Origin: Herbiconiux aconitum
Lineage (GTDB): Bacteria > Actinomycetota > Actinomycetes > Actinomycetales > Microbacteriaceae
Direction: 5' to 3'
DNA length: 64,000 nucleotides
Assembly (NCBI RefSeq): GCF_024979235.1
Contig: NZ_JANLCM010000002.1
Location: forward strand, 930,001 to 994,000
A model generated the notes under the pieces. That model saw nothing but the letters and a program-made list of their open reading frames with translations, did not search any database and was not told where the DNA came from. Each line of letters opens with the position of its first letter. Position 1 is the stretch's first letter. Positions 16,366 to 60,900 of this stretch are shown here, piece after piece. A program made the translations under genes and the position numbers.

Positions 16366-16470
16366 GGTCCCTGCCCGGCGCCGCGCGACATGTTCCGGTG
16401 AGGTCGCTTCGCGGCCTCGCCGTCACCCTGGGTCGTTGAGTAAGGCCTGTTGCGTTCGAATTTCGTTTCG
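16366..16470 (+). repeat. Dispersed structured repeat, partial copy A
   Basis: Lies in the divergent gap between thyX and the thioredoxin gene. It contains the module GCGCGACATGTTC, the UUCG-type hairpin GAGGTCGCTTCGCGGCCTC and TCACCCTGGGTCG, in the same order as the full copies. It then continues with a segment (GAGTAAGGCCTGTTGCGT) that matches the left end of the copy at 23.28 kb. The middle of the full element is missing here. Confidence 0.7.
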
Positions 16471-16564
16471 CTCTTCCTCCCTTTCCTCTGCTCTGCTGTG
16501 CTCTGGTCGTAACAATCGTCATGAACGGATGCGACGGGGCGGGGCCGCCTACGCTGCGATCACC

Positions 16565-17002
16565 ATGAATCTTCTCGTCGTCATCGCGTTCCTCATCGGC
16601 CTCGTCGCCGTGAGCACCCTCGTGGGCTTCGCATGGAAGTCGCGGCAGGGCGCCGCTCGCGCCGTGGCGGCACAGCCATCCGTGCCACCCGAGCTCTTCG
16701 ACGCCGCCGCCGGAACCACACCACCCCGATTCGGCGAGCGGGCGACCCTGGTGCAGTTCTCCACCGAGTTCTGCTCGGGCTGCCCCGCCACCCGCCGCGT
16801 TCTCGCCGAGATCTCGACCCGCACGAGCGGTGTCTCCTACCTCGACGTCGACGTCACCCACCGGCCCGATCTGGTGCAGCGCTTCAGCATCCTGCAGACC
16901 CCGACCACGCTCATCCTCGACCGCGACGGAGTGGTTCGCACCCGCATCGGCGGCGCGGTGCGCCGGGCCGTGGTGGAGACCCGATTGAAGGAGCTCGCAT
17001 GA
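16565..17002 (+). CDS. Membrane-anchored thioredoxin-like protein
   Basis: 145 aa with an N-terminal membrane anchor (LLVVIAFLIGLVAVSTLVGF, residues 3-22), then a thioredoxin fold with a CSGC redox motif (Cys70, Cys73) and the cis-Pro loop QTPTTLILDRDG. The redox domain is probably extracytoplasmic. It overlaps the following DUF4395 gene (ATGA); this pair recurs in actinobacteria and suggests a thiol-redox couple in the membrane. A TACGCT hexamer ends about 10 nt before the ATG. Confidence 0.85.
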   Translation: MNLLVVIAFLIGLVAVSTLVGFAWKSRQGAARAVAAQPSVPPELFDAAAGTTPPRFGERATLVQFSTEFCSGCPATRRVLAEISTRTSGVSYLDVDVTHRPDLVQRFSILQTPTTLILDRDGVVRTRIGGAVRRAVVETRLKELA

Positions 17003-17472
17003 TCGACCCCCGCGCCCCACGGTTCACGGCCGGCATCACCGCCGTTCTGCTGCTGGTCACGATCGTGCTGAGTTTCGCCTATCCCACCGATACGCAGTTA
17101 GCGCCGGTGGCACGCATCCTCTCCCCCGCCTTCCTGCTGCTGGCCGCCCTCAGCCTCCTCTTCCTCTGGGGCGCCACCGCCGGCGTCAAGCGGCACCCCT
17201 TCGGCTGGTTGTTCCGCACGCTGGTGCGACCGAGGCTGGCCCCTCCGGCCGAACTCGAAGACCCGAAGCCGCCGACCTTCGCGCAGCTCGTCGGCTTCAT
17301 CGTGACGCTCGCCGGTCTCGTGCTCGGAGCGCTCGGCGTGCCGTTCGCCATCACCATCTTCGCCTCGCTCGCCTTCGTGGCGGCCTTCCTCAACTCCGTC
17401 TTCGGCTACTGCATCGGCTGCCAGCTCTACCTGCTTCTCATCCGGGTGAGGCCGGTTTCGCCCCGCACCTGA
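16999..17472 (+). CDS. DUF4395 membrane protein
   Basis: 157-aa membrane protein with four hydrophobic segments (around residues 12-30, 43-60, 98-118 and 118-136). The DUF4395 hallmark is the C-terminal motif GYCIGCQLY, with two cysteines three residues apart near residue 140. The ATG at 16999 overlaps the thioredoxin stop and has AAGGAG six bases upstream. The CxxC next to a membrane thioredoxin suggests electron transfer between the two; the substrate is unknown. Confidence 0.85.
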   Translation: MIDPRAPRFTAGITAVLLLVTIVLSFAYPTDTQLAPVARILSPAFLLLAALSLLFLWGATAGVKRHPFGWLFRTLVRPRLAPPAELEDPKPPTFAQLVGFIVTLAGLVLGALGVPFAITIFASLAFVAAFLNSVFGYCIGCQLYLLLIRVRPVSPRT

Positions 17473-17481
17473 GGAAATGGC

Positions 17482-17510
17482 CTGACGCTTCGGGCGAAAG
17501 CGAATAGTCT
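17482..17510 (+). promoter_or_regulatory. Promoter of the OsmC gene
   Basis: CTGACG at 17482-17487, a 17-bp spacer, and TAGTCT at 17505-17510, about 27 bp before the ATG. The spacing is ideal for a housekeeping sigma factor. A GGAGAGG ribosome site follows, so this transcript has a normal leader. Confidence 0.5.
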
Positions 17511-17537
17511 GGACGCACCGACGGAGAGGTATGTCCC

Positions 17538-17969
17538 ATGACTGTCACCAGCGAGTCCACGACCGTATGGCGCGGAGATCTGCTCACCGGGTCGGGAACG
17601 ACCACGCTCGACACCTCGAAGGCCGGCACCTTCGCCGTGAACTGGAAGGCGCGTTCCGAAGGAGAGGGGGCCGACAGCGTCACCACACCCGAGGAGTTGC
17701 TCGGCGCGGCGCACGCCTCCTGCTTCTCGATGGCGTTCGCGAACGCCCTGGCCCGCTTCGGGTCGAGGCCGGAGTCGTTGCAGACCACGGCCGCCGTCAC
17801 CTTCGACCCCGCCGAAGGCGTCACCGGAAGCCACCTGCTGGTGAGCGCGGTCGTTCCCGGCATCTCGGAGACCGACTTCCAACGCATCGCCGAGGAGGCG
17901 AAGGCCGGCTGCCCGATCTCGCGTGCCCTGGCGGGCATCCCGATCACCCTCGAAGCGAGCCTCGCGTAG
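17538..17969 (+). CDS. OsmC-family peroxiredoxin-like protein
   Basis: 143-aa OsmC/Ohr-type protein expected to reduce organic hydroperoxides with a Cys pair. The two catalytic cysteines are Cys62 (AHASCFSMA) and Cys125 (KAGCPIS), placed as in the family. The ATG at 17538 follows GGAGAGG. It lies just after the thioredoxin/DUF4395 pair, making a small thiol-redox cluster, but has its own promoter. Confidence 0.92.
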   Translation: MTVTSESTTVWRGDLLTGSGTTTLDTSKAGTFAVNWKARSEGEGADSVTTPEELLGAAHASCFSMAFANALARFGSRPESLQTTAAVTFDPAEGVTGSHLLVSAVVPGISETDFQRIAEEAKAGCPISRALAGIPITLEASLA

Positions 17970-18009
17970 TGATCGCACCGGGGATCGTCACGGCGGCGAG
18001 GACGAGCTG

Positions 18010-18903
18010 ATGACCGAACCGCGCACCGTGCTCATCGCCGGTGGTTCGGGCTTCATCGGAACCGAGCTCGCCGCCCAGCTCCGCGCCGACGGGCACACCG
18101 TGCTGATCCTCGTGCGCCGCCCGGCGCGCACCCCGCTGGAGCGCACCTGGGACCCGGAGGCCCGCTGGATCAAGTCCAGCATCATCGACGGCGCAGATGC
18201 CGTGGTGAACCTCTCCGGCGCTTCCATCGCGAGATTGCCGTGGACGCTGTCGTACAAGCGGGAGATCCTGCAGTCGCGCATCCAGGCCACCTCGACGCTC
18301 GCCGATGCGATCCTGCGTTCGGAATCGCCGCCCGACGTCTTCATCAGCGGCTCGGCCGTCGGCTTCTACGGAGACCGGCCCGGTGAGTTGCTGACCGAGG
18401 CCGCGCCGGCCGGCGATGGCTTCCTCGCCAAAGTCGCGGATGCCTGGGAGCGCGCGGCAGCACCGGCCGCGGCTCGCACACGGGTCGTCGTCGTGCGCAC
18501 CGGACTGGTGGTGGGAGCGGGCGGTGGCGCCCTGAAGCCCCTGAGACTGATGGCCAAGGCCGGCCTCGCCGGGCCGCTCGGCACGGGCGATCAGGTCTGG
18601 CCGTGGATCGGCCTCTACGACGAAGCCGCCGCCATCCGGCACCTGCTGAACTCGTCGCTCGACGGCCCGGTGAACCTCGTAGGCCCGGAGCCCGCCGCCG
18701 CGAGTCTGGTGGTGCGCGAACTGGCCGAGCAGCTGCACCGGCCGTACTGGCTCCGCGCGCCGGCCTGGGCGCTGAAGGCGGCTCTGGCTGACGCGGGCAA
18801 AGACCTCCTACTGTCCGATCAGGATGTCTCGAGCCAGCGCCTCGCGGCCGACGGCTTCACCTTCCGCGACGACACCCTCGAGAAGGCCCTGGCCGCCGTC
18901 TAG
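18010..18903 (+). CDS. TIGR01777-type NAD-dependent epimerase (SulA/YfcH-like)
   Basis: 297-aa extended SDR-like protein. N-terminal nucleotide-binding motif GGSGFIGTELAAQL, then NLSGASIA, SGSAVGFYGDRP (replacing the usual YxxxK region) and a C-terminal domain ending in LEKALAAV, all typical of the TIGR01777 group. Its substrate is not known in general. The ATG at 18010 follows GACGAGCTG; the longer frame from 17923 would overlap osmC. Confidence 0.9.
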   Translation: MTEPRTVLIAGGSGFIGTELAAQLRADGHTVLILVRRPARTPLERTWDPEARWIKSSIIDGADAVVNLSGASIARLPWTLSYKREILQSRIQATSTLADAILRSESPPDVFISGSAVGFYGDRPGELLTEAAPAGDGFLAKVADAWERAAAPAAARTRVVVVRTGLVVGAGGGALKPLRLMAKAGLAGPLGTGDQVWPWIGLYDEAAAIRHLLNSSLDGPVNLVGPEPAAASLVVRELAEQLHRPYWLRAPAWALKAALADAGKDLLLSDQDVSSQRLAADGFTFRDDTLEKALAAV

Positions 18904-18908
18904 AGCAG

Positions 18909-19352
18909 CTAACGCCCCTTGCGTTCCAGGGCGATCGCCGTGCGCAGAGCCCCGCGCGCACGACGGCGGTCGCCGCTGGCGTCGTAGGCGAGGCCCAGTC
19001 GGAACCAGGCGCGCCAGTCGGTCTCGTCGGCCTCGACGGCGTCGCGGTACTGCGGGAACTCCTCGTCGGCGGCCGCGCGGAGTGGCCTCCCGCTCGCTTT
19101 CTTCGGCAGGTCGTCGACCGGCAGCTCGCCTTCCCTCTCGAGCTGCTCGACGAGGCGCTGGGTGCGCATCCCGAACATCAGCTCGCGCACGAGCGCCCAA
19201 GCGCCGACGATCGGCAGGATGATGAGTGCCACCCCGATCCCGATCGCGATCGGCACCCCCGTCAGCACGAACTGCACGGCGCGCACCCCGACGAGCACGA
19301 TGTAGACGGCCAGCAGCACCGCCATCAGGAGGGCGGCGAAGCGGTTCTTCAC
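18909..19352 (-). CDS. Membrane protein with TPR-like C-terminus
   Basis: 147 aa. Two hydrophobic segments (about residues 7-28 and 33-55) are followed by a soluble part whose end (DWRAWFRLGLAYDASGDRRRARGALRTA) has the spacing of a tetratricopeptide repeat. GTG at 19352 overlaps the dapB TGA (GTGA), so the two are co-translated. This small TPR protein next to dapB is common in actinobacteria; function unknown. Confidence 0.82.
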   Translation of the reverse strand: MKNRFAALLMAVLLAVYIVLVGVRAVQFVLTGVPIAIGIGVALIILPIVGAWALVRELMFGMRTQRLVEQLEREGELPVDDLPKKASGRPLRAAADEEFPQYRDAVEADETDWRAWFRLGLAYDASGDRRRARGALRTAIALERKGR

Positions 19353-20221
19353 GGATGCACACTCGTGGCGGTGGCCGCCTGTCCGGACACGTTCTCGGGG
19401 TCGGGGTCGGTCGGCAACGATGCGGAATCGGTCGACGCGGCATCCGTCGCCCCGGCGCCGGCGACGGGATGGCCGCCCTGGGCCGACCCGGAATCGAGGC
19501 CGAGCAACTGGTCGAGCCCCAGGATCACGCCGCGTGCAGTGGCCGCCGCTGCGAGAGCCAGCGTGATTCCGGCCGCGTAGGCGCTCGGCGAGATGGTCTC
19601 ATGGGTGATCGTGAGCACTTCGCCGGTGCCGCCGAACACGACGTCCTGCTTGGCCACGATCCCGTTCAGGCGCAGGCTGTGGATGGGGATGCTCGCCACC
19701 TGCTGCCCGCGCGCCCGCTGGTCGGTGTGAGGAGCGGCGACCGGTCCGATGGCGGCCCGCGCCGCACCCATCAGTTCGGCGGTGCGCACGGCGGTGCCCG
19801 AGGGCGAATCGACCTTCGTGGAAGCATGCGTCTCGACGATCTCGATCGAGTCGAAGTACCGCGCCGCCATCGCGGCGAACGACGTGGCGAGAACGGAGCC
19901 GAGCGAGAAGTTCGGAATCACCACGATGCCCGACGTGGGCTCGTCGCCGAGGCTGCGACGGAGGCCCGCGATGCGGTCGGCCGACCATCCGGACGTGCCG
20001 ATCAGAAGGTTCTTGCCGTTCGCCACCGCGAACTCGACGACCCTCTGGGTGACACCAGGCACCGTGACGTCCACCACGAGCTCGGCCACCAACATGTCGT
20101 CGAGGGAGCTCCGCGAATCCAGCGAGGCGACGAGTTCGAACTCGGGCGACTCCTCCACGAGACCCGAGATCAGTCGGCCCATCTTCCCTGTCGCACCGAC
20201 GACGGCAACCTTCGTAGTCAT
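19349..20221 (-). CDS. dapB: 4-hydroxy-tetrahydrodipicolinate reductase
   Basis: Second step of the diaminopimelate/lysine branch, NAD(P)H-dependent. 290 aa: N-terminal VAVVGATGKMGRL nucleotide site and the catalytic block ETHASTKVDSPSGTA, with the acid/base His132 and Lys136 kept, while the second His of the common HH pair is Ala. The core ends near residue 245; a 45-residue Gly/Ala/Ser/Asp tail follows that has no role in the known fold. Divergent from the acetyltransferase across 338 bp of repeats. Confidence 0.96.
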   Translation of the reverse strand: MTTKVAVVGATGKMGRLISGLVEESPEFELVASLDSRSSLDDMLVAELVVDVTVPGVTQRVVEFAVANGKNLLIGTSGWSADRIAGLRRSLGDEPTSGIVVIPNFSLGSVLATSFAAMAARYFDSIEIVETHASTKVDSPSGTAVRTAELMGAARAAIGPVAAPHTDQRARGQQVASIPIHSLRLNGIVAKQDVVFGGTGEVLTITHETISPSAYAAGITLALAAAATARGVILGLDQLLGLDSGSAQGGHPVAGAGATDAASTDSASLPTDPDPENVSGQAATATSVHP

Positions 20222-20265
20222 TGTTCCAGCTTATTGCGCGCCGCCGCCGCTGCGGCGCGCCTTGC
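20222..20265 (+). repeat. Fragment G of the dispersed repeat
   Basis: Just upstream of dapB. It reads CTTATTGC followed by a GCGCGCCGCC/GGCGGCGCGC-like palindrome, matching the core of the full copies (CTTATTGCTCGCGCCGCC) with small differences, and then diverges. Too short to be certain. Confidence 0.4.
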
Positions 20266-20331
20266 GAAGTGGTCGTGGGAGCCCACGCACCGGGCGCTCT
20301 CACCGCAGAACGCGCCGTCACGCCGCCGCGT

Positions 20332-20528
20332 TCCGCCGACCCCATTTCGTTGACCGCGCTTCGTTGACCCCATTTCGTTGACCGCGCTTCGTTGACCGCG
20401 TTTCGCCGACCGCGTTACCCCGACCCCACTTCGCCGACCGCGTTACCCCGACCCCACTTCGCCGACCGCGTTCCGCCGGCCCCGTTCCGCCCGGGCCCGT
20501 TTCGCCGGGCCCGCTTCGTCGTGCCCGC
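20332..20528 (+). repeat. 14-bp tandem repeat array
   Basis: About 14 head-to-tail copies of a 14-bp unit, consensus TTCGYYGACCGCGT, alternating in the middle with the variant TACCCCGACCCCAC; one unit near 20486 has an extra base. The period is not a multiple of three and no frame reads through cleanly, so it is not coding. It fills the space between dapB and the acetyltransferase promoter. Confidence 0.85.
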
Positions 20529-20559
20529 TCGGTCGGCCGGCGGCTCGTAGGCTGGGGGC

Positions 20560-21033
20560 ATGCGCATCCGAACCGGCGACGTCACCGGCGGCCCCGAACG
20601 AGCTCTTCTCGACGACTACTTCGCGTTCCGTGCCGGGGCGTTTCCGCAGTCCGGCGGGCCGTACACCGTGTCGTACCCGTCTCCCGTGGACTTCGACGGC
20701 GTGAACGGCGTCTTCCTCGTGGTCGAAGACGACGAGGGAACCCCGGTGGGCTGCGGCGGCATCCGGATGCTCGCCGACGCGGATGCGGGCGTCGTGCGCT
20801 TCGAGGTCAAGCACGTCTGGCTCTCTCCCGCCATGCGGGGGCGCGGTTGGGCCGGGCTGCTCATGGCAGACCTGGAGCACCGGGCGCGCACCTTCGGCGC
20901 CACCGAACTCGTGCTCGACACCCACGACACGCTCGACGGGGCGGCCCGCCTCTACGCACGCCTCGGCTACGAGCAGATCCCGCCCTACAACGACAACCCC
21001 AACGCGACCCGCTGGTACCGCAAGCTCCTTTAG
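20560..21033 (+). CDS. GNAT-family N-acetyltransferase
   Basis: 157 aa with the GNAT acetyl-CoA motif in KHVWLSPAMRGRGWAGLLMADLE (R/Q-x-x-G-x-G/A pattern) and a C-terminal ARLYARLGYEQIPPY block. Substrate unknown. TAGGCT lies exactly 6 nt before the ATG, so the transcript is probably leaderless, although GGGGG just before ATG could weakly pair with 16S rRNA. Confidence 0.88.
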   Translation: MRIRTGDVTGGPERALLDDYFAFRAGAFPQSGGPYTVSYPSPVDFDGVNGVFLVVEDDEGTPVGCGGIRMLADADAGVVRFEVKHVWLSPAMRGRGWAGLLMADLEHRARTFGATELVLDTHDTLDGAARLYARLGYEQIPPYNDNPNATRWYRKLL

Positions 21034-21044
21034 AACTTGAACCG

Positions 21045-21240
21045 GGAATGTGGGTACCGCTTCGCCCCTTCCCGCGCTCGCCCGGCCTTCGGCTGGTCGG
21101 GCGCTCATTGCTCGCGCCGCCGCTGCTGCGGCGCGAGGCGACATGTTCGCGAGCGGTCGCTGACGCGGCCGCGCGCTCACCTTGGGTCATCGAGCGCGGC
21201 CCGCAGCCTGCGCTCTCGTTCCCAAGTCAGAGGGCGGTGG
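21045..21240 (+). repeat. Dispersed structured repeat, copy B
   Basis: Full-length forward copy between the converging acetyltransferase and phosphatase genes. Order: GGGTACCGCTTCGCC end motif, hairpin CGCCCGGCCTTCGGCTGG, CTCGCGCCGC/GCGGCGCGAG palindrome, the invariant 19-mer TGCGGCGCGAGGCGACATG at 21127-21145, a degenerate GCGGTCGC...GCGGCCGC stem, CACCTTGGGTCATCGAGCG, and GCGGCCCGCAGCCTGCG before CTCGTTCCCAAGTC. Confidence 0.85.
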
Positions 21241-21254
21241 GATGTGGCGGCAAG

Positions 21255-21857
21255 CTAATACGGCTGCGGGTCGTTCACACCGGTACGCAACTCCACCGGC
21301 AAGTGGCCCAGGTCGTTGTAGGCCACGAGCTCAGGCAGGCGGCCGGCCTTGAATCGGATGATCGTGAGACCCGCGTGCGCCTGGTTCAGCCCGGCCCAGC
21401 GCCACTCCGGCGCATCCATCGCCTCCCGCACGAACCAGGCGATCACGAAGTTGTGCGTGATCAGCAGGTCGTGGGTGGTGGCGCGTGACGGGGTCAGGAA
21501 TTCGGCCACCGCATCCGACATCTGGGCGCGTCCGGCCTCCACCTCGTCTTCGGTGACGGAGTTGAAGAAGGGCTCGAAGTTGTGGGGCATCTGCGGCGAG
21601 TATCCGGTCGGCACACAGTCGAAGAGCAGGGCGCTCGGCTTGGGGTCGAGGGCCGGCAGGTGCTCGCTCATGATGAGCGCGGTCTGCTCGGCGCGCTGCA
21701 GGGGCGAATGCCAGACGTTGTCGAAGGGCACACCGCCGAGCCGATCCGCGATCAGCCGTGCCTGGCGTTGGCCGCGCGGGGAGAGGGGTCCGTCGTCGAC
21801 GCCGTGCTCGGCGTCGAGCTGCTCCCCGTGACGCACGAGGTAGAGGGTGTGGGCCAT
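21255..21857 (-). CDS. Histidine phosphatase family protein
   Basis: 200-aa phosphoglycerate-mutase-like phosphatase. The phospho-accepting His is in LVRHGEQ (residues 7-13), the second catalytic His in LLITHNFVIAWF, with PLSPRGQRQARL and SPLQRAEQTA between. Substrate unknown. The ATG overlaps the TGA of the M16 peptidase (TGATG), so it is in that operon. Confidence 0.93.
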   Translation of the reverse strand: MAHTLYLVRHGEQLDAEHGVDDGPLSPRGQRQARLIADRLGGVPFDNVWHSPLQRAEQTALIMSEHLPALDPKPSALLFDCVPTGYSPQMPHNFEPFFNSVTEDEVEAGRAQMSDAVAEFLTPSRATTHDLLITHNFVIAWFVREAMDAPEWRWAGLNQAHAGLTIIRFKAGRLPELVAYNDLGHLPVELRTGVNDPQPY

Positions 21858-23227
21858 CAGATGTTCACCACTTGGCGAAAGGCGTCGTCATCGACCGGGC
21901 CGACCGCGGCGATGCTCACCGGATGCGCAGCCAGCTCCTGCGCGAGTTCCTGCACGTCGTCGCGCGTCACGGCCATCAGGCGGCGCACACTCTCGTCGAG
22001 GTCGACGAACTCGCCCAGGGTGAGTTCGGAGCGGCCGAGCCGCGACATGCGCGTGTCGGAGTCTTCGAGTGCGAGGGCGGCAGAGCCCGAGAGCTGGCCG
22101 TGGGCGCGATCGAGTTCGTCGGCCGAGATGCCGTCGGCAGCGAGGCGGCGCAGCTCGCTCAGCATGAGTTCGCTGACCGTGCCCGAGCGCTCGGGGGTGC
22201 AGCCGGCGTACATCGTGAACACGCCCGCATCCGAGTAGCTGGCCGCGTAGGAGTAGACGGAATAGGCGAGGCCGCGCTTCTCACGCACCTCCTGGAACAG
22301 TCGCGACGACATTCCGCCGCCGAACGCGGAGTTCAGCACGGCCATCGTGGTGCGACGGTCGTCGGTGGCGACGAGTCCGGGCATGCCCACCATCACACTC
22401 GCCTGTTCGGTGGGTTTGGCGACCACGCTGACCGGGCGAGGGCGACCGAGCACGGCCGGCTCGACGGATCGGCGGGGGCGCGGGGCAGCGATGATCGAGA
22501 GGTCCCAACCCGACGCATCCAGAGCCGCCGTCACGGCCGCCACGATGGCATCGTGATCGACGGCACCGGCTGCCGAGACCACGAGGTCGTTGGGCCGGTA
22601 GGAGGCGGTGTAATGCTCCCACACGGCGTCGCGAGTGACGGCGCGGATGGTCTCCGGCGTTCCGCCGACCGGGCGGCCCAACGGATGCTCGCCGAGCACG
22701 GCTTCGAACAGACGCTCCCCCACGAGATCCGACGGGTCGTCTTCGGCCATGGCGAGCTCTTCGAGGATGACGCCGCGCTCGGTTTCGAACTCACCGTGCT
22801 CGAGGAGCGAGGAGGTCAGCATGTCGGCGATGACCGTGACGGCCATCGGCAGGTCGGCGTCGCGAACCTTCGCGTAGTAGCAGGTGTACTCCTTGGCCGT
22901 GACGGCGTTGTGCTCACCGCCGACCGAGTCGAACGAGATCGCGATGTCGAGTGCGGTGCGACTCGGCGTGCCCTTGAAGAGCAGGTGCTCGAGGAAGTGC
23001 GTCGACCCGAATCGCGACGGCACACCGGCAACGGCGCCCAGCTCGTCGCGCGAGCCGGCGGCCACCCAGTAGCCGATGGTGGCGCTGCGACTGCCCGGGA
23101 TGTGCTCGGTGAGGATGCGCACCCCGCTCGGCAGGATCGTTCGCCGCACCAGCCCTTCGGCGACGGTGCCGATCGAGAGTTCCGGAAGGTCAAGGGGTAG
23201 TGGCACGGCGTTGTTCATCAGGGGCAA
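21857..23227 (-). CDS. M16-family zinc metallopeptidase
   Basis: Pitrilysin/processing-peptidase-like protein of 456 aa. The inverted zinc motif HFLEH is at residues 77-81 with the downstream Glu in the ERGVILEELAM region; the C-terminal M16C domain contains GGGMSSRLFQEVREKRGLAYSV. One chain of this size usually dimerises. Start: TTG at 23227 has GGGAAGG five bases upstream; ATG at 23218 would lie 14 bases away from it, so TTG is preferred but not certain. Lying downstream of pnp is the conserved actinobacterial order. Confidence 0.93.
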   Translation of the reverse strand: MPLMNNAVPLPLDLPELSIGTVAEGLVRRTILPSGVRILTEHIPGSRSATIGYWVAAGSRDELGAVAGVPSRFGSTHFLEHLLFKGTPSRTALDIAISFDSVGGEHNAVTAKEYTCYYAKVRDADLPMAVTVIADMLTSSLLEHGEFETERGVILEELAMAEDDPSDLVGERLFEAVLGEHPLGRPVGGTPETIRAVTRDAVWEHYTASYRPNDLVVSAAGAVDHDAIVAAVTAALDASGWDLSIIAAPRPRRSVEPAVLGRPRPVSVVAKPTEQASVMVGMPGLVATDDRRTTMAVLNSAFGGGMSSRLFQEVREKRGLAYSVYSYAASYSDAGVFTMYAGCTPERSGTVSELMLSELRRLAADGISADELDRAHGQLSGSAALALEDSDTRMSRLGRSELTLGEFVDLDESVRRLMAVTRDDVQELAQELAAHPVSIAAVGPVDDDAFRQVVNI

Positions 23228-23237
23228 GCCTACCTTC

Positions 23238-23640
23238 CCTCGCTCCGGGAACGTGGGTACCGCTTCGCCGCTTTACCGCGGGCGTCGAGTAGGGCCCGTT
23301 GCGTGCCGCGCCGCATTCGAGTGTGCGAAACGACGGAGTTTCGCGCCCCAGACCGGAAACGACGGAGCCTCAGCCCGCAGTTCCGCGCCCCCTCCGTCGT
23401 TTCGCTCTCGTTTCCCAAGTCGTGGGGAACGAGACCGCAGGCCGCGGGCCGCGCTCGACGCCCCAGGGTGAGCGCGAGGCCGCGAAGCGACCTCACGCGA
23501 ACATGTCGCCTCGCGCCGCAGCAGCGGCGGCGCGAGCAATAAGGGCCCGCCCAGCCGAAGGCCGGGCGAGCCCGAGGGGCGGCGGGTCGGCACCCGCGAA
23601 TCTGGCGGCCCTCCGGCAGGCGGCACCCCCGCTCACCCCC
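23238..23640 (-). repeat. Dispersed structured repeat, longest copy C (inverted)
   Basis: Fills the 472-bp gap between the M16 gene and pnp. In reverse orientation it carries all modules of copy B (19-mer at 23502-23520). Beyond them is an extra module with AACGACGGAG/CTCCGTCGTT inverted repeats near 23330-23405, then a segment shared with copy A. GGGTACCGCTTCGCC stands at the left edge and a degenerate inverted version at the right edge, so this copy has terminal inverted repeats. Open frames here (for example 23299-23703) are artefacts of the repeat. Confidence 0.85.
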
Positions 23641-23648
23641 ACAAACGA

Positions 23649-23684
23649 CGGATGCCCGCCCCGACGAATCGGGACGGGCATCCG
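23649..23684 (-). terminator. pnp terminator
   Basis: Hairpin with 16-bp arms (CGGATGCCCGCCCCGA and its near-complement, 15 of 16 paired) closed by a CGAA tetraloop, 15 bp past the pnp stop. Strong stem, no long T-run. Confidence 0.8.
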
Positions 23685-23699
23685 GTGCTGCAGTGAGAC

Positions 23700-25991
23700 C
23701 TAGCCTTCGGCCGGGTCGGTCGGGCCCTCGCTGTGCGCGGCGGAACCCTCGGTGTCTGCAAGCTCGGCGAGCACCGGAGCGAGCGACAGCTTTCCGCGGT
23801 CGTCGATCTTCGTGATCTCCACGAGGATCTTCTGGCCGACGCCGAGCACGTCTTCGACGTTCTCGACACGCTTGCCACCGGAGAGCTTGCGCACCTCGGA
23901 GATGTGCAGCAGGCCGTCCTTGCCCGGGAGCAGCGAGATGAACGCACCGAAGGTCGCGAGCTTGACGACGGTTCCGAGGAACTGCTCGCCGATCTCGGGG
24001 TTCTGCGGGTTCGCGATGGCGTTGACCTGCTGGCGGGCAGCCTCGGCCGAGGGGCCGTCGACGGCGCCGATGTACACGGTGCCGTCTTCCTCGATCGAGA
24101 TGTCGGCGCCGGTCTCGTCCTGGATCGCGTTGATCGTCTTGCCCTTCGGGCCGATCAGCTCGCCGATCTTGTCGACCGGGATCTGAACCGAGATCACGCG
24201 GGGCGCGGTCGGGGCCATCTCGTCGGGCGCGTCGATCGCGGCGTTGATCACGTTGAGGATCGCGTCGCGAGCGGCCTTGGCCTGCTTGAGGGCACCATCC
24301 AGAACCGAGGTCGGGATGCCGTCGAGCTTGGTGTCGAGCTGGATCGCGGTGATGAACTCAGACGTGCCGGCGACCTTGAAGTCCATGTCACCGAGGGCGT
24401 CTTCGGCGCCGAGGATGTCGGTGAGAGCCGCGTAACGCGTCTCGCCGTCGACCTCGTCCGACACCAGACCCATAGCGATACCGGCGACCGGGGCGCGCAG
24501 CGGCACACCGGCGTTCAGCAACGACAGGGTCGAGGCGCAGACGGAACCCATCGAGGTGGAGCCGTTGGACCCGAGGGCCTCCGACACCTGACGGATCGCG
24601 TAGGGGAACTCCTCGCGGCTCGGCAGCACCGGCACGAGCGCGCGCTCGGCCAGGAAGCCGTGCCCGATCTCGCGACGCTTCGGCGAACCCACGCGGCCGG
24701 TCTCACCGGTCGAGTAGGGCGGGAAGTTGTAGTGGTGCAGGTAGCGCTTCTTCGTGATCGGGCTCAGGGAGTCGATCTGCTGCTCCATCTTGAGCATGTT
24801 CAGCGTGGTGACACCCAGGATCTGGGTCTCGCCGCGCTGGAAGATCGCCGAGCCGTGCACGCGCGGGATGACCGCGACCTCGGCGTCGAGCGGCCGGATG
24901 TCGGCCAGTCCACGGCCGTCGATGCGCACGCCCTCTTTCAGGATGCGACCACGCACGACCACCTTGGTGACCGACTTGTAGGCGGCGGAGACCATGGGCG
25001 GCACGTCGCCACCCAGCTCACCGGCGTCGACCTTGACCTGAACGGCGGCCTTGACGCGCTCCTTGAGGGCGTCGTCGGCGTTCTGGCGCTCGATCTTGTC
25101 GGCGATCTGGTAGATGTCGACGAGCTCGGCGTAGGCCAGCTCGGCGACCGCGTCGTAAGCAGCCTGCGAGTAGGGCAGGAACACGGGGTACTCCTGCACC
25201 GCCTTGTTCGCCTGCTGAGCCATCGAAGCCTGAGCCTCGACGAGCTGCTTGATGAAGGGCTTGGCGGCCTCGAGGCCCTCGGCCACGATGGCCTCGTTCG
25301 GCTTGGTGGCGCCGCCCTTGATCAGGTTCCAGCTGTTCTCGGTGGCTTCGGCCTCGACCATCATGATCGCGACATCCTGGTTGCCGTTCTTGTCGGTCAC
25401 GACACGGCCGGCCACGACGAGGTCGAACACGGCCTCTTCGAGCTGCGAGTACTTCGGGAACGCGATCCACTGGTCGGGCTCTGAGCCGTAACCCGGCATG
25501 AGCGCGAGGCGCACACCACCGATCGGACCCGAGAACGGGATGCCCGAGATCTGCGACGACGCGGAAGCGGCGTTGATCGCGAGCGAGTCGTAGAACTCGT
25601 CGGGAGCGATGCTCAGAACGGTGATGACGACCTGGACCTCGTTGCGGAGGCCGTTGACGAACGACGGACGCAGCGGGCGGTCGATCAGACGGCAGACCAG
25701 GATGGCCTCGGTCGAGGGGCGACCCTCGCGGCGGAAGAACGAACCGGGGATCTTGCCGGCGGCGTAGGAACGCTCTTCGACGTCGATCGTCAGCGGGAAG
25801 AAGTCGAAGTTGTCTTTCGGGTGCTTGCTCACGCTCGTGGCGGAGAGCAGCATGGTCTCTTCGTCGAGGTAAGCGGCAACGGCGCCCTGGGCCTGCTGCG
25901 CGAGGCGGCCGGTCTCGAAGCGAACCGTGCGGGTGCCGTACTTGCCGTTGTCGAGAACGGCTTCGGCGAATTTGATCTCAGGACCTTCCAA
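23700..25991 (-). CDS. pnp: Polyribonucleotide nucleotidyltransferase (PNPase)
   Basis: 3'-5' phosphorolytic exoribonuclease of the RNA-degradation machinery. 763 aa with two RNase PH domains (first from [15 protein letters not shown], second from [15 protein letters not shown] with the catalytic [18 protein letters not shown]), then a KH domain ([14 protein letters not shown]) and a C-terminal S1 domain ([24 protein letters not shown]). Start TTG at 25991, with AAGGAGA about 10 nt upstream. It sits far from rpsO, its usual upstream neighbour, and has a long leader. Confidence 0.98.
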
Positions 25992-26234
25992 GAGGTCTGT
26001 CTCCTTTGTTTAGCGTCGCAACCCCGTGTGGGTCGCGACTCCTCGCGTGGGAGCAGGCGTGACGGCAGCGAAAACGAGCCGTTACGTGTGTCGATGGGCG
26101 ACGCTGTGAATGAACACATGCTGGCCACCAGTAGAAGACCTCCGCGACGCGTCTGCATGATGCAGAACGCGATTCGGAAAACCACCACCGAGGACCAGCT
26201 TCCTGCCAGCCTGCTCTCAACCTCTTTATCCTAA
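25992..26234 (-). promoter_or_regulatory. Long pnp 5' leader and probable promoter
   Basis: About 240 nt between pnp and the next gene with no reading frame of coding quality. It holds the palindrome TCTGCATGATGCAGA (26152-26166) and a GTCGC/GCGAC stem close to the start codon. GTTAGGATAAAGAGG at its upstream end resembles the GGATAAAGAG at the rpsO promoter, so transcription probably begins there. A structured pnp leader is known as an autoregulatory site in other bacteria; that role here is inference. Confidence 0.35.
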
Positions 26235-26285
26235 CAGGCGGGGGGCGGAGAACCGAGGAACGCTCGCCGTGGGTCCAGCGGGCAC

Positions 26286-26873
26286 TCAGGCCGGGATTTC
26301 GCCGAGGCCGAAGTCGACGGTGAACGGGCGCGCCGACCCGTGGATCGTGACCGGCACGACGACGGCAGCCCGGCGTGCCGCCAGGCGCCGGAGAGCGGCG
26401 CCCAGCTCGAGATCGACCTCAGGCGGTACGAACCCGGCGCGGTAGATCTGGCCGTCTCCCCCGATCAGGTCGACGGCCACGCGCAGCTCGCGGCCGAGCC
26501 AGCGACTCGCATCCGGCGTCAGCACCGCTGTCACGGGGCCTGAGGTCTTCGCCTGCGCGGCGTCGATCGCGTTCTGCCGGCGATCGGAATCGACCACCCG
26601 CAGCGTCTTCGTCGGGTCGACCTCGAGGAGTTCGACGCCCTCGAGGCTCTTCCGGGTGTTCTCACTGTCTCGGCCGTTGGGGAGGAACAGCGGCAGCACG
26701 AGCAGCACGGCGATGCCGACGGCCCCGACGAGCAGCACGATCGCAAAGATCGGACCCAGCACCGGCCAGTCGGCCCGGGTCACGAAGTTGGCGGCGATCG
26801 CCAGAACGAGAACCATCGCGAAGAGGAAGGCCTCCCACCGCCAGAACGGCTTCCATCTGCGTGTGTAGTTCAT
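26286..26873 (-). CDS. Two-helix membrane protein of unknown function
   Basis: 195 aa. A basic N-terminus (MNYTRRWKPFWRW) precedes two membrane helices (about 15-32 and 40-62); the rest is soluble, with a beta-rich C-terminus (GPVTAVLTPDASRWLGRELRVAVDL and VVVPVTIHGSARPFTVDFGLG). No family recognised. Same strand as the genes further right, separated from them by repeat copy D. Confidence 0.7.
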   Translation of the reverse strand: MNYTRRWKPFWRWEAFLFAMVLVLAIAANFVTRADWPVLGPIFAIVLLVGAVGIAVLLVLPLFLPNGRDSENTRKSLEGVELLEVDPTKTLRVVDSDRRQNAIDAAQAKTSGPVTAVLTPDASRWLGRELRVAVDLIGGDGQIYRAGFVPPEVDLELGAALRRLAARRAAVVVPVTIHGSARPFTVDFGLGEIPA

Positions 26874-26879
26874 AGGGGT

Positions 26880-27070
26880 ATTCTGCCGTGTCGGTACCGC
26901 TTCGCCGGTTCCCGCGATGCGCGGCCGGCGGTCGCGCGTCGCTTATTGCTCGCGCCGCCGCTGCTGCGGCGCGAGGCGACATGTTCGGCTTCGGTCGCTC
27001 GCGCGGCCGAGGCCTCACCCTGGGTCGTCGAGCGCGGCCCGCGGCCTGCGATCGCGAACCGCACCTTCTG
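26880..27070 (+). repeat. Dispersed structured repeat, copy D
   Basis: Forward copy directly upstream of the two-helix membrane protein. It has GTCGGTACCGCTTCGCC at the left end, a degenerate first stem, TTATTGCTCGCGCCGCC, the invariant 19-mer at 26965-26983, a GGTCGC...GCGGCC stem, CTCACCCTGGGTCGTCGAGCG and GCGGCCCGCGGCCTGCG. The following CTCGTTCCC part is degenerate. Confidence 0.83.
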
Positions 27071-27091
27071 CAAGTGACCTGCCGCTTCGGC

Positions 27092-27514
27092 TCAGCCCAG
27101 CATCAGCGCGTCGCGGTCGGTGGGGCTCACGCGGAACGGGTACATCGCCCCGGGCTGCCAATTCGGCAGCGCCGCCTGCGCGATCACGGTCTTGTAGACG
27201 GTGCGGTAGGGCTCCGCGCCCGGCAGCGTGACGTCGAGGTCGACCGCGAAGATCACGTCGCCGCCGATGCGTCCGCCGGTGTCATGCAACGCGACGACCG
27301 TGCCCGAGCCCTGGATCATCGACGCGTACATGCTCAGGTTCGTGAACGGATTCGCCGTCGCGGCGCCGTGCGTGCCAAGTGGTGCGTTCGGGTCCTTCCC
27401 GGCGAACTGCTCGGCGAGATCCGCCGACTGCCGCAGGTTCTCGGCATAATCGGTCTGCGCCGTCTGCTTGGCTCCCGCCTTCACGAGACGCCACACGTCG
27501 TTGAAGACACCCAT
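27092..27514 (-). CDS. Hypothetical protein, paralogue of its neighbour
   Basis: 140 aa. Begins MGVFNDVWRLVKAGAKQTAQ, then a helical part, and a beta-rich C-terminal domain (VIFAVDLDVTLPGAEPYRTVYKTVI...MYPFRVSPTDRDALML). The C-terminal pattern matches that of the gene at 27527-27979, so the two look like tandem duplicates. Only 12 bp separates them. No family recognised. Confidence 0.75.
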   Translation of the reverse strand: MGVFNDVWRLVKAGAKQTAQTDYAENLRQSADLAEQFAGKDPNAPLGTHGAATANPFTNLSMYASMIQGSGTVVALHDTGGRIGGDVIFAVDLDVTLPGAEPYRTVYKTVIAQAALPNWQPGAMYPFRVSPTDRDALMLG

Positions 27515-27526
27515 TGGTGCGTCGGT

Positions 27527-27979
27527 TCAGCTCGTGAGGGCGATGGCCTGCGGGTTCGCCGGGTCGACGGCCACGGTGTGCGTGGTGCCCTCGGCGTAGT
27601 TCGCGAGGAACTGCGGCGGCACCATCTCGCGTTTGGAGACCGTGTACGGAGTCTGGCCGGGAAGCGTCACCTCGATCTCCAGCTGGTACCAGGGGTTGCC
27701 CGAGGTGCGCTCCCCCGTGTCGACCGAACTGCGGATGACGGATGCCCCGGGTGCGCCGACCGCGATGATGCGGTTGAGCTCCTGGCCGTAGGCGTTCAGT
27801 ACGTCGTGGTCGGCCGACATCTGCGCGCCGACCGATCCGGCGTTCGCCATCGTGACCGGGGCGCCGTCGGTGTATCCCGCGTCGCGCATGGCCTGGTCGG
27901 CCATCTGCTGCGCTGCGGCCGCCTGGGCCGCCATGTCTCCCCCACCGAACGCGTTCTTCGCTTTGCCGAACAGACCCAT
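27527..27979 (-). CDS. Hypothetical protein with Gly/Ala/Gln-rich N-terminus
   Basis: 150 aa. MGLFGKAKNAFGGGDMAAQ start, a helical Ala/Gln segment, then a beta domain (QLEIEVTLPGQTPYTVSKREMVPP and HTVAVDPANPQAIAL). ATG at 27979 follows AGGGATGGTC; an upstream extension to 28060 has no support. Likely co-transcribed with its paralogue 27092-27514. Function unknown. Confidence 0.75.
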   Translation of the reverse strand: MGLFGKAKNAFGGGDMAAQAAAAQQMADQAMRDAGYTDGAPVTMANAGSVGAQMSADHDVLNAYGQELNRIIAVGAPGASVIRSSVDTGERTSGNPWYQLEIEVTLPGQTPYTVSKREMVPPQFLANYAEGTTHTVAVDPANPQAIALTS

Positions 27980-28081
27980 GACCATCCCTTGTCTCGCCTT
28001 GTCGCTCAGTGTGCCAGAGCCGGAACCTCCGAACAAGGCACACCTCGACACCTGTCGCACTCGGCGATCCTCAGAACCGAT

Positions 28082-43810: not shown

Positions 43811-44278
43811 ATGCCTCCTGTCCCGCTTCCCCGTCTCGACGTACCGGTGCCGGCCGACGGACTGTCAATCGGCGATGTCGCACACGCGACCGGGCTGAGC
43901 ATCGACACCCTGCGGTACTACGAAAGCGCCGGGCTGATGCTCGACCCCACGCCGCGTGATCCCGGCGGTCGCCGCCGCTACACACGCAACGACCTCGACT
44001 GGATCGCCGGGCTGATCATGCTCCGCGAGACCGGCATGTCGATCGCCGACGTGCGACGGATGGCCGAGCTCAGCCGCGAGGCCGGCACCGAGGCCGACCG
44101 TCTCGTCGTGCTCGAGGGCCACCGCGCCCGCGTGCTCGCCGACCTCGCCCGAACGCGGGCGCACCTCACCGCCCTGGAGAAGAAGATCACGTCGTATCGC
44201 GCGGCAATAGAGGCAGATACGAACGCAGATACGAACGAGACCGAAAGCCGCGGGCCGCACTCACCCACCCCGGGGTGA
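43811..44278 (+). CDS. MerR-family transcriptional regulator
   Basis: 155 aa. N-terminal winged helix LSIGDVAHATGLSIDTLRYYESAGL (about 18-42) and RRRYTRNDLDWIAGL, then a coiled-coil dimerisation helix (LADLARTRAHLTALEKKITSYRAAI). There are no metal-binding cysteines, so it probably senses an organic compound or aldehyde. The last roughly 16 codons (after IEADTNADTN) lie within repeat copy E, which also provides the stop. It is autoregulated through the dyad in its own promoter, by inference. Confidence 0.92.
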   Translation: MPPVPLPRLDVPVPADGLSIGDVAHATGLSIDTLRYYESAGLMLDPTPRDPGGRRRYTRNDLDWIAGLIMLRETGMSIADVRRMAELSREAGTEADRLVVLEGHRARVLADLARTRAHLTALEKKITSYRAAIEADTNADTNETESRGPHSPTPG

Positions 44279-44395
44279 GCGCGCGGCCGCGTCAGCGACC
44301 GCACGCGAACATGTCGCCTCGCGCCGCAGAAGCGGCGGCGCGAGCAATAAGGGCCCGCCCAGCCGAAGGCCGGGCGAGCCCGGAAAGCGGCGATT
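44226..44395 (-). repeat. Dispersed structured repeat, copy E (inverted)
   Basis: Reverse copy between merR and the aldo/keto reductase gene, beginning inside merR. The invariant 19-mer is at 44310-44328 (complement). The GCTCGCCCGGCCTTCGGC hairpin, the CTTATTGCTCGCGCC block and the GGCCCGCGG block are all present; the right edge (GGGTGCCGAATCGCCGC on the minus strand) is a degenerate end motif. Confidence 0.85.
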
Positions 44396-44426
44396 CGGCA
44401 CCCCCACCCACCCGAAAGGACCCCGC

Positions 44427-53118: not shown

Positions 53119-53130
53119 GATCGTTCCTCC

Positions 53131-54465: not shown

Positions 54466-54559
54466 CGTCGTTCCTCCGGGGTCGCTGCTGCGAGTCAAGC
54501 GGAGCCCGGTAGCACTGTCGTCATCCCACTCGGGTGATCCCGACAGGGGCACATCCGCC

Positions 54560-55225: not shown

Positions 55226-55227
55226 CG

Positions 55228-56700: not shown

Positions 56701-56811
56701 GAGGGGAACCTAGCGAACCGCGCCGCCGCGCTGCATCACCCTGACGGGATGACGACAGCCGCGCGGCCGCCCGCCTACCGTGAGGGCATCTGAACGAGCG
56801 GGAGCACGCCG

Positions 56812-58264: not shown

Positions 58265-58362
58265 CGAGTGTGCGCCGCCGGGCGAATCAGGGCGTCATCC
58301 GCCATGGATGACTTCTGCCCTTCGCTGCCATACTGGGGTTCGGGCGCGGGAAAAGAGGCCGG

Positions 58363-60543
58363 ATGGGTCAGCTGCATGTTCCTCCGCGTCACGCGGTCGA
58401 CCGACCGGGCCTGCGGCATCTGCTCGACGACGGACAGTCCGGTCCGGCCACGTTGATCGTCGCCCCGGCCGGCTCCGGTAAATCGGTGCTGATCAGCCAG
58501 TGGGCGGCCTGCCGCAACGATCTCGTCTTCGTCTGGCTCGACGTCGGCCCCGAAGACAGCGATGCTGCCTGTTTCGCTCGACGTCTGACGGCCGCGCTCA
58601 CCCCGCTCTCCCCGGGCATCGCGACCATCGGGTCGAAAGTGGTCGCCGCCGGCGGCGGTCTGGGTCGGCCCTTCGTCGACGCGCTGAGCGATCGGATGCA
58701 GTCGTTGCCGGAATGCGTGATCGTGCTCGACGACCTCCACCTCCTCGCGAACGAGAAGGTGCTCGCCGATCTCTGGACCCTCGTCGACATCGTGCCTCCG
58801 CAGATCCACTTCCTGCTGTCGTCGCGGCGCGACTTCCGGCTGGGTTGGGGGCCGCTGCGCCTGCGGCACAACCTTCTCGAGATGCGGCAGTCGCACCTCG
58901 CCTTCGACGACGAGGATGCCGCGGAGGCGGTGGTGCGCATCAGCGGCCGTGCGCTCGCCCCCGAGGACGTCTCGGTGCTGGTCGAGCGCACCGAGGGCTG
59001 GGCGGGCGGTGTGCAGCTGGCGGCGCTGACACTGCGCGACTCCGATGATCCGGAGGTCTTCGCCTCGGTGATCGCCGGAAGCGATCGGCTGATCGCCGAC
59101 TACCTCGGCGAAGAGGTGCTGCTCGCCCAATCGGAGGGGCGCCGCGAGAGCTTGCTCCGACTGTCGGCCCTGAAGGAGATGAACGCCGATCTGGTCGCCG
59201 CCTGCACCGGGAAGCCGCAGGCGCAGGCCGCCGAGCTGCTCGAATCGTTGCAGGACCAGTCGATGTTCCTGCGCCCGGTGACGGGCAAACCCGGGTGGTA
59301 CCGCTTCCATCACCTCTTTCGTGAGTTGCTGCGCTACCGGCTGCACGCGAGCGATCCCGACGGTGAGACGACGGTGCTCCTGCGGGCTGCCGAGTGGTCG
59401 CTCGAACACGACTCCTTCGAGAAGGCCATCGGCTACTTCATCGAGGCGGAGCACTGGGATTCGGTTCTCGCGGTTCTGCTGGCCCGCGGATCGGACGTCT
59501 TCGAACGTGGGCAGACCGCCACCATGCTCAGCTGGCTCGACGCCGTTCCGGAGGGTGCGCTGCGACACAATCCGGAGGCGCGTCTGCTCCGCGGCATGCT
59601 GCTCGGCCTGAGCGGGCGCGTGGCCCAGGCGGAGGATCTCTTTCGCGAACTCGGGGCCGACCCCGCTCTCACCCCGGGTCAGCAGCTCGTGGCCCACAGC
59701 TACCTCACGGCGCGGGTGCAGTTCCGGCCGAGCCCTGCCCTCTCGTTGAGCGACGCCGAGGTGGCGGTGGGCCTGCTCACCGCCTACGACGGTTACCCGG
59801 TGCCTGATCTCCTGCGCCTGACCAGCGTCAAGATGCTCTGGCCGTTCGTGCTGGCCGCGGGCGGCCGGTCACTGTTCTTCCTCGGCCGGCTCGACGAGGC
59901 GAGAACGTGGCTGCAGCGCGGCCTGGACACCCCGGGTGGACGGTATTCGGCCTACCGCATCCACCTGCTCGGGAGCCTCGCGCTGGTGGATGTCTGGGAG
60001 GGCCACCTCGAACGAGGTCTCGACACAGCCGACGAGGCGATCCAGCTCGCGCGAGAAGTGGGACTGCTCGGGCACCCCGCTCCCGCCGACGCCTATCTCG
60101 CCCGGTGCTTCGCGGCCATCGCTGTCGGTCGCACCGAAGCCGCCGTGTCGGCCATGCGCGAAGCCGAAGCGCTCGCGGCGCTCAACAATCGCACGCAGTT
60201 GCTCTGGTTGGTGCGTCTGGCGAAAACGCTTCTGCTCGGCCACTTGTTCGTCGACGACGAGGCCATCGGTCCTCCGCCTCCGGTCGTGGCCGCCGAACTC
60301 GGTCGCGCACGCGACGCGGTGCCGCTGGCGGCCACGACCTCGCCGCTGCCGGTTCCGCTCACCGATCGCGAGCGTGAGCTGCTGGCCTACTTCCCGAGCC
60401 GCTATTCGAACGCCGAGCTCGCGTCACGGCTGTTCGTGTCGGTCAACACCATCAAGACGCACATGGCGCACATCTACCGCAAGCTCGACGCCCCCGACCG
60501 GGACGCCGCCATCCTGCGGGCGCGAGAGCTGGGGCTGTTGTGA
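58363..60543 (+). CDS. LuxR-family MalT-like ATP-dependent regulator
   Basis: 726-aa STAND-type regulator. Walker A VAPAGSGKS (33-41), Walker B CVIVLDDLHLL (about 117), a winged-helix-like segment (GWYRFHHLFRELLRYRL), a helical repeat sensor domain, and a C-terminal LuxR HTH (LTDRERELLAYFPSRYSNAELASRLFVSVNTIKTHMAHIYRKLD). It senses an unknown inducer and activates genes when ATP-bound. ATG at 58363 behind AAAGAGG. Likely partner in context: the small DQAALHGLL gene. Confidence 0.93.
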   Translation: MGQLHVPPRHAVDRPGLRHLLDDGQSGPATLIVAPAGSGKSVLISQWAACRNDLVFVWLDVGPEDSDAACFARRLTAALTPLSPGIATIGSKVVAAGGGLGRPFVDALSDRMQSLPECVIVLDDLHLLANEKVLADLWTLVDIVPPQIHFLLSSRRDFRLGWGPLRLRHNLLEMRQSHLAFDDEDAAEAVVRISGRALAPEDVSVLVERTEGWAGGVQLAALTLRDSDDPEVFASVIAGSDRLIADYLGEEVLLAQSEGRRESLLRLSALKEMNADLVAACTGKPQAQAAELLESLQDQSMFLRPVTGKPGWYRFHHLFRELLRYRLHASDPDGETTVLLRAAEWSLEHDSFEKAIGYFIEAEHWDSVLAVLLARGSDVFERGQTATMLSWLDAVPEGALRHNPEARLLRGMLLGLSGRVAQAEDLFRELGADPALTPGQQLVAHSYLTARVQFRPSPALSLSDAEVAVGLLTAYDGYPVPDLLRLTSVKMLWPFVLAAGGRSLFFLGRLDEARTWLQRGLDTPGGRYSAYRIHLLGSLALVDVWEGHLERGLDTADEAIQLAREVGLLGHPAPADAYLARCFAAIAVGRTEAAVSAMREAEALAALNNRTQLLWLVRLAKTLLLGHLFVDDEAIGPPPPVVAAELGRARDAVPLAATTSPLPVPLTDRERELLAYFPSRYSNAELASRLFVSVNTIKTHMAHIYRKLDAPDRDAAILRARELGLL

Positions 60544-60554
60544 AGGCTTCTTCG

Positions 60555-60900
60555 GGCACGGCCGGGCGGTTTCCCGGGCTCGCCCGGCCTTCGGCTGGGC
60601 GGGCCCTTCTTGCTCGCGCCGCCGCTTCTGCGGCGCGAGGCGACATGCTCGGCTGAGGTCGGAGGGCCCGGCCTGCGGTCGGACCCTCCGGCCTCGGCCT
60701 CACCCTGGGTTGTCGAGCGCGGCCCGCGGCCTGCGGTCTCGTTTCCCCACGACTTGGGGAACGAGAACGAGAACGAGACCGAGACCGAGAACGAGAACGA
60801 GAACGAGAACGGAACGACGGAGGGGGCGCGGAACTGCGGGCGGAGGCTCCGTCGTTTCCGGTGTGGGGCCTGAAACTCCGTCGTTTCGTAAGCGAGGCGC
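60555..60900 (+). repeat. Dispersed structured repeat, long copy F
   Basis: Forward copy filling the 388-bp gap between the converging luxR and LLM genes. All core modules are present (19-mer at 60629-60647), with the middle stem enlarged by a GGAGGGCCCGGCCTGCGG insertion. Like copy C it continues into the module with AACGACGGAG...CTCCGTCGTT inverted repeats. Between the two parts is a hexamer array. Confidence 0.85.
60761..60808 (+). repeat. Hexanucleotide array inside repeat F
   Basis: Eight head-to-tail copies of ACGAGA, with two CCGAGA variants in the middle. The other copies have only one or two such units at this place, so it has expanded within this copy. Confidence 0.85.

Follow-up and report, generated by a model that had tools for sequence, protein, structure and literature searches.

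The closest described systems are REPINs, doublets of repetitive extragenic palindromic (REP) sequences, which are linked to RAYT transposases and to feet of the form GT[AG]G (PMC3116915, PMC6006769), and the CGTC-tagged REPs, whose means of spreading in the absence of a transposase of their own is stated to be an open question (PMC3733652). Here, we analyze a dispersed repeat family of Herbiconiux aconitum, starting from a 64,000-nucleotide (nt) stretch of its genome (contig NZ_JANLCM010000002.1, positions 930,001 to 994,000, hereafter the window), in which an earlier note had described at least six structured intergenic copies. The host is a plant-associated soil bacterium. The family is present in many copies, its stems are compensated, its positions are polymorphic between species, it is biased towards gene 3' ends, and no RAYT was found in the genomes that carry it. 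The explanation we lean towards, with little better than even confidence, is that of a genus-level, REPIN-like, non-autonomous family recognized as a folded single strand by a factor acting in trans.

The unit of the family, here called an arm, measures roughly 140-185 nt and is composed of a foot, three hairpins (I, II and III) of 9-14 base pairs (bp), near-invariant linkers joining the hairpins (GCGACATGTTC and TCACCCTGGGTCGTCGAG) and a tapering tail, as read from 30 aligned blastn copies of the host genome (at least 49 places; best 40 of 183 candidates scored). These copies display two types of arm, which a crude motif rule assigned in the element counts. The A arm consists of a GGGTACCGC foot, hairpin I (mostly 13-14 bp), TYATTGC, hairpin II, GGCGACATGTTC, hairpin III, TCACCCTGGGTCGTCGAG and the tail. 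The B arm starts with a looser foot (around TAG before TGCC), followed by hairpin I' with the loop TGCTTCGC, hairpin II', CGCGACATGTTC, hairpin III and the linker TCACCCTGGGTCGTCGAG; TAG lies within the 8 nt ahead of the hairpin in 26 of the 41 B arms (CTAG in 14, TTAG in 9, GTAG in 2 and ATAG in 1). Long copies run via a central module into a second, oppositely directed arm.

The stems covary strongly. A covariance model (R1) covering hairpins II and III was built on an alignment of 30 arms (A2), in which 98.7% of the cells are paired and 8 of the 21 pairs (61 cells) have changed on both sides, with no one-sided change. In a second alignment of 107 distinct arms from other species (A3), built from 100 loci, a subset, and fitted to the model, hence biased towards structure, 13 of the 21 pairs have changed on both sides, with 283 both-sided cells vs 14 one-sided ones; the former compare with a mean of 81 in shuffled controls and at most 34 in slid ones, and none of 500 shuffles was as high. 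Hairpin I' gave a similar picture in the host genome, where its 22 distinct stems are 94.3% paired vs a maximum of 79.5% in 1000 shuffles (43 cells both-sided, 5 one-sided and 15 unpaired). Two U-G pairs of hairpin III recur in A3, one (columns 46/84) kept in 107 of 107 arms and another in 91 of 107. Moreover, cells of the G-U type outnumber those of the A-C type (204 vs 39, the structure having been drawn on the sense strand, which favours this result), so that folding is better on the sense strand than on the complementary one. All these counts refer to sequences and not to events.

The search of the whole genome with R1 yielded 89 matches (arms) in 72 elements of the 4.16-Mb host genome (G000), a number which may be a lower bound, the best 150 of 12,461 first-look candidates having been scored. 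According to the gene calls, nearly all of these arms are intergenic. Fifty-five elements are single arms, 16 are inverted doublets and one is a direct pair; the doublets comprise ten A-B, two A-A and two B-B combinations, plus two with an unclassified arm. Within the genus, 14 of the 16 genomes carry from 1 to 89 arms and two (G250 and G011) carry none; these two and G256, with a single arm, form one clade in the tree built on the DNA of pnp and of the M16 peptidase gene. Under strict filters, 6 of the 249 Microbacteriaceae genomes gave a match, four from the same genus (host included) and two weak ones from outside it (G180 and G053); further matches at E 0.02-0.1 were obtained in G009, G264, G006 and G127. 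The G180 match was rejected as a family member, being a different type of repeat with one hairpin core in common. A scan of a contig collection with an exact pattern returned 63 stretches, 55 of them labelled Herbiconiux and eight labelled either "Microbacteriaceae bacterium 3FA27C10" or "Corynebacterium-like bacterium B27"; arm coordinates and scores match the latter two to G155 and G254, both members of the genus. A search of a plasmid collection with one copy as the query gave no match, and the window has no Rfam match at the gathering score.

A separate Microbacteriaceae repeat was observed on G012 contigs and at other loci (L064:1450-1700; L243-L248), where constant GGTTGAGTAG and CGTATCGAAACC, or near forms of them, surround a short palindromic stem that is different in nearly every copy and still self-complementary. 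It has 13 exact pattern matches in the 1.4-Mb G012 and matches in 3 of 60 genomes searched, and G180 harbours an inverted doublet of similar make-up.

The positions of the elements turn over between species. The host and its sister species G251 were compared over 164 kb, in aligned blocks of mostly 82-92% identity. Six of the nine host elements in this stretch are arm-less in G251, two are common to both genomes and one falls in a stretch absent from G251; conversely, of five G251 positions, the host lacks two (a remnant of a B arm persisting at one of them), two are common and one is not comparable. The site at 21.1 kb of the window, compared in 11 of the 16 genus genomes, exhibits a high variety of states: A arms with unlike stems in the host and G251, a B arm in G254, a reversed B arm in G155, diverged remnants in G255 and a lone hairpin II in G249 and G257. 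G205 and G259 have nothing there, the stops of the two genes overlapping at CTAG, and G252 and G253 lack the element together with the gene upstream of it. At one G251 locus (L190 ~8401-8572; G251:C3 ~128.4-128.6 kb), an unrelated long inverted repeat (AAAATCCGCCCCTAAAC/GTTTAGGGGCGGATTTT) stands where the host gene end has a B arm. The earlier note had proposed either a non-autonomous mobile element or a family of structured RNAs or terminators, and had set as checks a wider search with a covariance model, a comparison of sites in relatives and an inspection of the stems. Since additional copies exist, their positions differ and the stems covary, a dispersed, structured, probably mobile and non-autonomous family is supported, while the terminator half of the proposal fares worse, as discussed below.

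A first set of data concerns gene ends, the context counts being based on our own codon-usage gene calls and not on an annotation pipeline. The elements lie between convergent genes in 47 of the 72 cases, between genes of the same direction in 24 and between divergent genes in one, whereas 143 element-free gene pairs (164 kb) comprise 25 convergent, 89 same-direction and 29 divergent ones (47/72 vs 25/143 convergent, Fisher p 7e-12). For 63 of the 89 arms, a gene directed towards the arm has its stop codon no more than 110 nt before the outer end of the arm; this stop is TAG in 41 of the 62 readable cases vs 83 of 271 other genes (p 4e-7), and ahead of nine B arms a TAG stop ends exactly 37 nt before the model start. 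Such a distribution, with its convergent excess, its near lack of divergent gaps and its TAG stops, would fit a host-useful RNA element of the 3' untranslated region (3'-UTR), or of a terminator, selected at gene ends and spreading only secondarily, and it lends this possibility some weight, although we consider it doubtful on the whole. In its favour, the copies of G258 and G252 exhibit a long stem between an A-tract and a T-tract, as in a two-way terminator, a laxer terminator scan (window 16001-28000) flagged hairpin I in copies C and D, not in copy B (Table 1), and the conserved U-G pairs suit an RNA, though folded single-stranded DNA as well. On the other hand, a hairpin with a strict T-tract occurs in 13 of the 72 elements vs 3 of 25 element-free convergent gaps, and strict T-tract terminators are thus not clearly enriched in the elements; besides, a range of 0 to 89 copies within one genus and different elements at orthologous gene ends are unlike a needed regulatory RNA, and REPs in general are described with a similar distribution (PMC3733652).

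If the family is mobile, the next issue concerns its mover. The RAYT domain Y1_Tnp (PF01797), whose search matched E. coli and the other control genomes, is found in none of the 14 carriers, and the sole genus genome with such a gene (G011) is element-free, so that a RAYT was rejected as a resident partner as far as PF01797 can reveal one. A true REPIN family moved by a RAYT since lost from these genomes would still account for the inverted doublets, the hairpins with conserved wobble pairs, the location at 3' ends and the TAG ahead of many B-arm hairpins (two of them within GTAG); it appears improbable to us, the A foot being GGGTACC, Y1_Tnp not being found in 15 of the 16 genus genomes and a loss in every carrier being a strained history. 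An origin as a miniature inverted-repeat transposable element, derived from an insertion sequence of the DDE type that bears terminal repeats, would fit copy C and the two A-A doublets, which bear GGGTACCGC or a diverged form of it inverted at both ends; ten of the 16 doublets, by contrast, have unlike ends (A and B), the sites compared, with their diverged flanks, showed no target duplication, and IS110 (DEDD) scored above the cut-off in one of the 16 genomes (DDE families were not searched for). This origin, too, appears improbable to us. IS110 was likewise discarded as a partner, being confined to G093 apart from one sub-threshold match in G252, and so was a reverse transcriptase, RVT_1 being present in only 3 of the 16 genomes (G250 and G011, without copies, and G254, with 24 arms); neither of the two tracks the family. 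Y2_Tnp (IS91/helitron-like) gave no match in the 16 genus genomes, nor in the control genomes. A more speculative possibility, which we would entertain without expecting it to hold, is a mobile element moved by none of the transposase classes so far linked to repeats and recognized by its fold, with the invariant unpaired linkers as the core of recognition and the stems free to vary provided that they pair, and inserted at gene ends (often at TAG or CTAG) by some enzyme or by a replication-fork process.

A different kind of alternative regards the stems themselves. Among the both-sided cells of A3, 216 of 283 are purine-pyrimidine flips and 67 are transitions; since flips dominate and one-sided cells are rare, which is unusual for stepwise compensation, the data suggest stem exchange or templated repair of palindromes, added to selection or replacing it. 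If the paired changes were mutational altogether, arising through template switching or cassette exchange in palindromes, the covariation would say little on selection for the fold. This idea, compatible with the explanation that we prefer, agrees with the breakpoints of some nested copies (L026, L029 and L030), which appear to fall in hairpin loops; nevertheless, we hold it to be rather unlikely, because palindrome repair should sometimes correct a U-G pair such as that of columns 46/84, which has stayed imperfect throughout, and 78 cells are unpaired.

Returning to the preferred explanation of a REPIN-like family recognized by its fold, the following scheme can be proposed. Two facing arms would make up a doublet, with pairing of linker to linker and a predicted rod from which hairpins are thrown out. 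The two doublets that were folded score far below shuffled sequences (z -11.4 for L009, z -10.2 for the G258 doublet); in the predicted fold of the latter, GCGACATG pairs with CATGTCGC and hairpins III and III' leave the central rod at a four-way junction, and in that of L009 hairpins I and II of one arm are extruded from the rod. The folded single strand, either DNA or RNA, may be recognized by a factor in trans that reads the fold together with the invariant linkers, the sequence of the stems being ignored. The family, non-autonomous and with positions that turn over between species, as the site differences show, would settle or survive at gene 3' ends, and single arms would mostly represent decayed doublets. 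A hairpin placed a few bases behind a stop codon would become part of the 3'-UTR of the gene and probably affects mRNA 3' ends. Recognition of a folded single strand has precedents in integron attC sites, which conserve structure over sequence, and in the ends of IS200/IS605 elements.

Several observations weigh against this scheme. No mobilizing enzyme was found, the only Y1 transposase being that of the element-free G011 (DDE families were not searched for), and no recurrent partner emerged among 140 genes flanking the elements, as far as the 25 most frequent of 222 Pfam families are concerned (none of these 25 has more than three members, and they comprise widespread kinds of enzyme, transporter and ATPase). 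Single arms exceed doublets (55 vs 16), and the foot of the B arm is loose, TAG being missing from the 8 nt ahead of the hairpin in 15 of the 41 B arms. Part of the copy-number pattern is explained by inheritance, as the three genomes with no or one arm form one clade. Three of the six arm-less G251 sites retain remnants of an arm, and thus some of the site differences reflect decay and not insertion; target duplications were not visible in the comparison, in which the flanks have diverged and remnants persist at several sites. As for the folds, the advantage of a single A arm over shuffles is only modest (z -2.65 on the sense strand) and smaller still on the opposite strand (z -1.20), the fold predicted for L009 has no four-way junction, its hairpins III pairing together in one long rod, and a rough energy comparison of 45-nt pieces including linkers favours inter-arm over intra-arm pairing in all 16 host doublets, so that the four-way junction is one possible form and not an established one.

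The copies present in the window are listed in Table 1.

Table 1. Copies of the repeat and their parts in the 64-kb window (coordinates counted from the first nucleotide of the window).
Feature	Position	Strand	Basis
Copy A: single B arm, foot TAGCTGCC, hairpin I' then II and III	16319..16455	+	R1 match 16359-16450, 101.6 bits; sequence
Lone hairpin II-like fragment	20236..20264	+	Sequence; R1 match 20236-20313, 21.2 bits, E 0.007
Copy B: single A arm (GGTACCGC foot, hairpins I, II, III, conserved tail)	21053..21223	+	R1 match 21112-21204, 103.2 bits
Copy B, hairpin I	21074..21104	+	Predicted fold; hairpin I series
Copy B, hairpin II	21112..21136	+	Model helix 1, covarying
Copy B, hairpin III; conserved U-G wobble pairs in family	21149..21176	+	Model helix 2, covarying
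Copy C: A arm and central AACGACGGAG module, inverted GGTACCGCTTCGCC foot at end	23256..23595	-	R1 match 23444-23535; sequence
Copy D: single A arm	26893..27060	+	R1 match 26950-27042
Copy E: single A arm; inner end forms last codons of MerR-type gene	44230..44404	-	R1 match 44250-44343
Copy F: A arm without GGTACC foot, extended hairpin III and central AACGACGGAG module	60574..60890	+	R1 match 60614-60727, 79.5 bits

The inventory of the earlier note, six copies and a fragment at 20.22 kb, was recovered by R1, which scores the copies at 79-103 bits and barely detects the fragment. The training alignment A2 included the copies at 16.4, 21.1, 23.3 and 26.9 kb, four of the six, and not those at 44.3 and 60.6 kb; the copies are also visible as plain repeats. 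The identical 19-mer attributed to five copies (TGCGGCGCGAGGCGACATG) indeed occurs exactly five times, in both orientations; with up to three mismatches allowed, shuffled sequences contain it 0.14 times on average and none of 100 shuffles reached five. The additional module of the two long copies (AACGACGGAG/CTCCGTCGTT) was likewise seen there in the sequence. Other details needed correction. The end motif GGTACCGCTTCGCC is exact at three places, but its inversion at both ends of copy C holds only loosely, the opposite end having diverged (GGTGCCGACCCGCC); the copy reported at 16.37 kb is genuine but starts at about 16319 and represents the second (B) type of arm, which had not been separated from the first; and the statement that no protein is encoded needs some qualification at copy E (44.23-44.40 kb), which a MerR gene model (43847-44278) enters by about 12 codons.

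In G251, the sites of copies A and D have no arm, and the gene end corresponding to copy F bears only a hairpin I'-like remnant. The elements have ordinary genes as neighbours, in the window thyX-like, thioredoxin-like, acetyltransferase, histidine phosphatase, pnp, M16 peptidase, MerR and aldo/keto reductase genes; of the ten scanned, two had no Pfam match. Copy C occupies the gap between pnp and the M16 peptidase gene (families assigned by Pfam), which in several relatives (L172:7900-8840, L173, L174, L177 and L183) contains an extra stretch of ~0.7-0.9 kb, apparently a related gene. Behind pnp, positions 23640-23690 hold a stretch of the ACGACGGATGCCCG type that includes a strong hairpin resembling a terminator, and this stretch recurs in most of the 15 relatives compared, whatever else fills the gap. 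Upstream of the acetyltransferase gene, positions 20312-20493 harbour head-to-tail 14-nt units of the CCGCGCTTCGTTGA type.

A search of the literature by title and abstract disclosed no account of this family among the matches listed; subscription papers are mostly uncovered by it, so this is no proof that the family is unpublished. The family might serve as a system for studying the spread of REPs without a transposase, combining turnover within the genus, 0 to 89 copies and a nearly empty clade beside full genomes, and the anatomy of its arms separates constant parts (linkers) from changeable ones (stems). Furthermore, the family reshapes many ordinary genes at their 3' ends and, in places, at the stop codon itself.

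With intrinsic and bidirectional terminators the family shares a GC-rich hairpin just behind the stops of convergent genes; it differs in that strict T-tracts are not clearly enriched, and invariant linkers and doublets would be superfluous for a terminator. It also differs from IS200/IS605 elements, their Y1 transposase not being found in the Herbiconiux carriers. The CGTC-tagged REPs (PMC3733652) resemble it in being REP-like, in forming dimers, in occupying convergent and same-direction gaps, in their variable stems and in having no dedicated transposase known; unlike it, they possess one 8-9 bp stem tagged with CGTC, in most cases with a CCA tail, and occur chiefly in alpha-Proteobacteria, whereas the Herbiconiux arms have three hairpins and other feet. 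The likeness to REPINs and REP-BIMEs (bacterial interspersed mosaic elements; PMC3116915, PMC6006769) includes high-copy, non-coding, extragenic palindromic units and their inverted doublets (16 of the 72 elements here), REPIN singlets being regarded as remnants. The differences are that REPs measure 20-40 bp and the arms described here are much larger, with three hairpins and two unlike types, and that neither a consistent GT[AG]G foot (the GTAG or GTGG tetranucleotide) nor a genomic RAYT flanked by repeats was found in the carriers. Because foot, RAYT and size all disagree, the Herbiconiux family is not filed as a REPIN; it is REPIN-like in arrangement and location.

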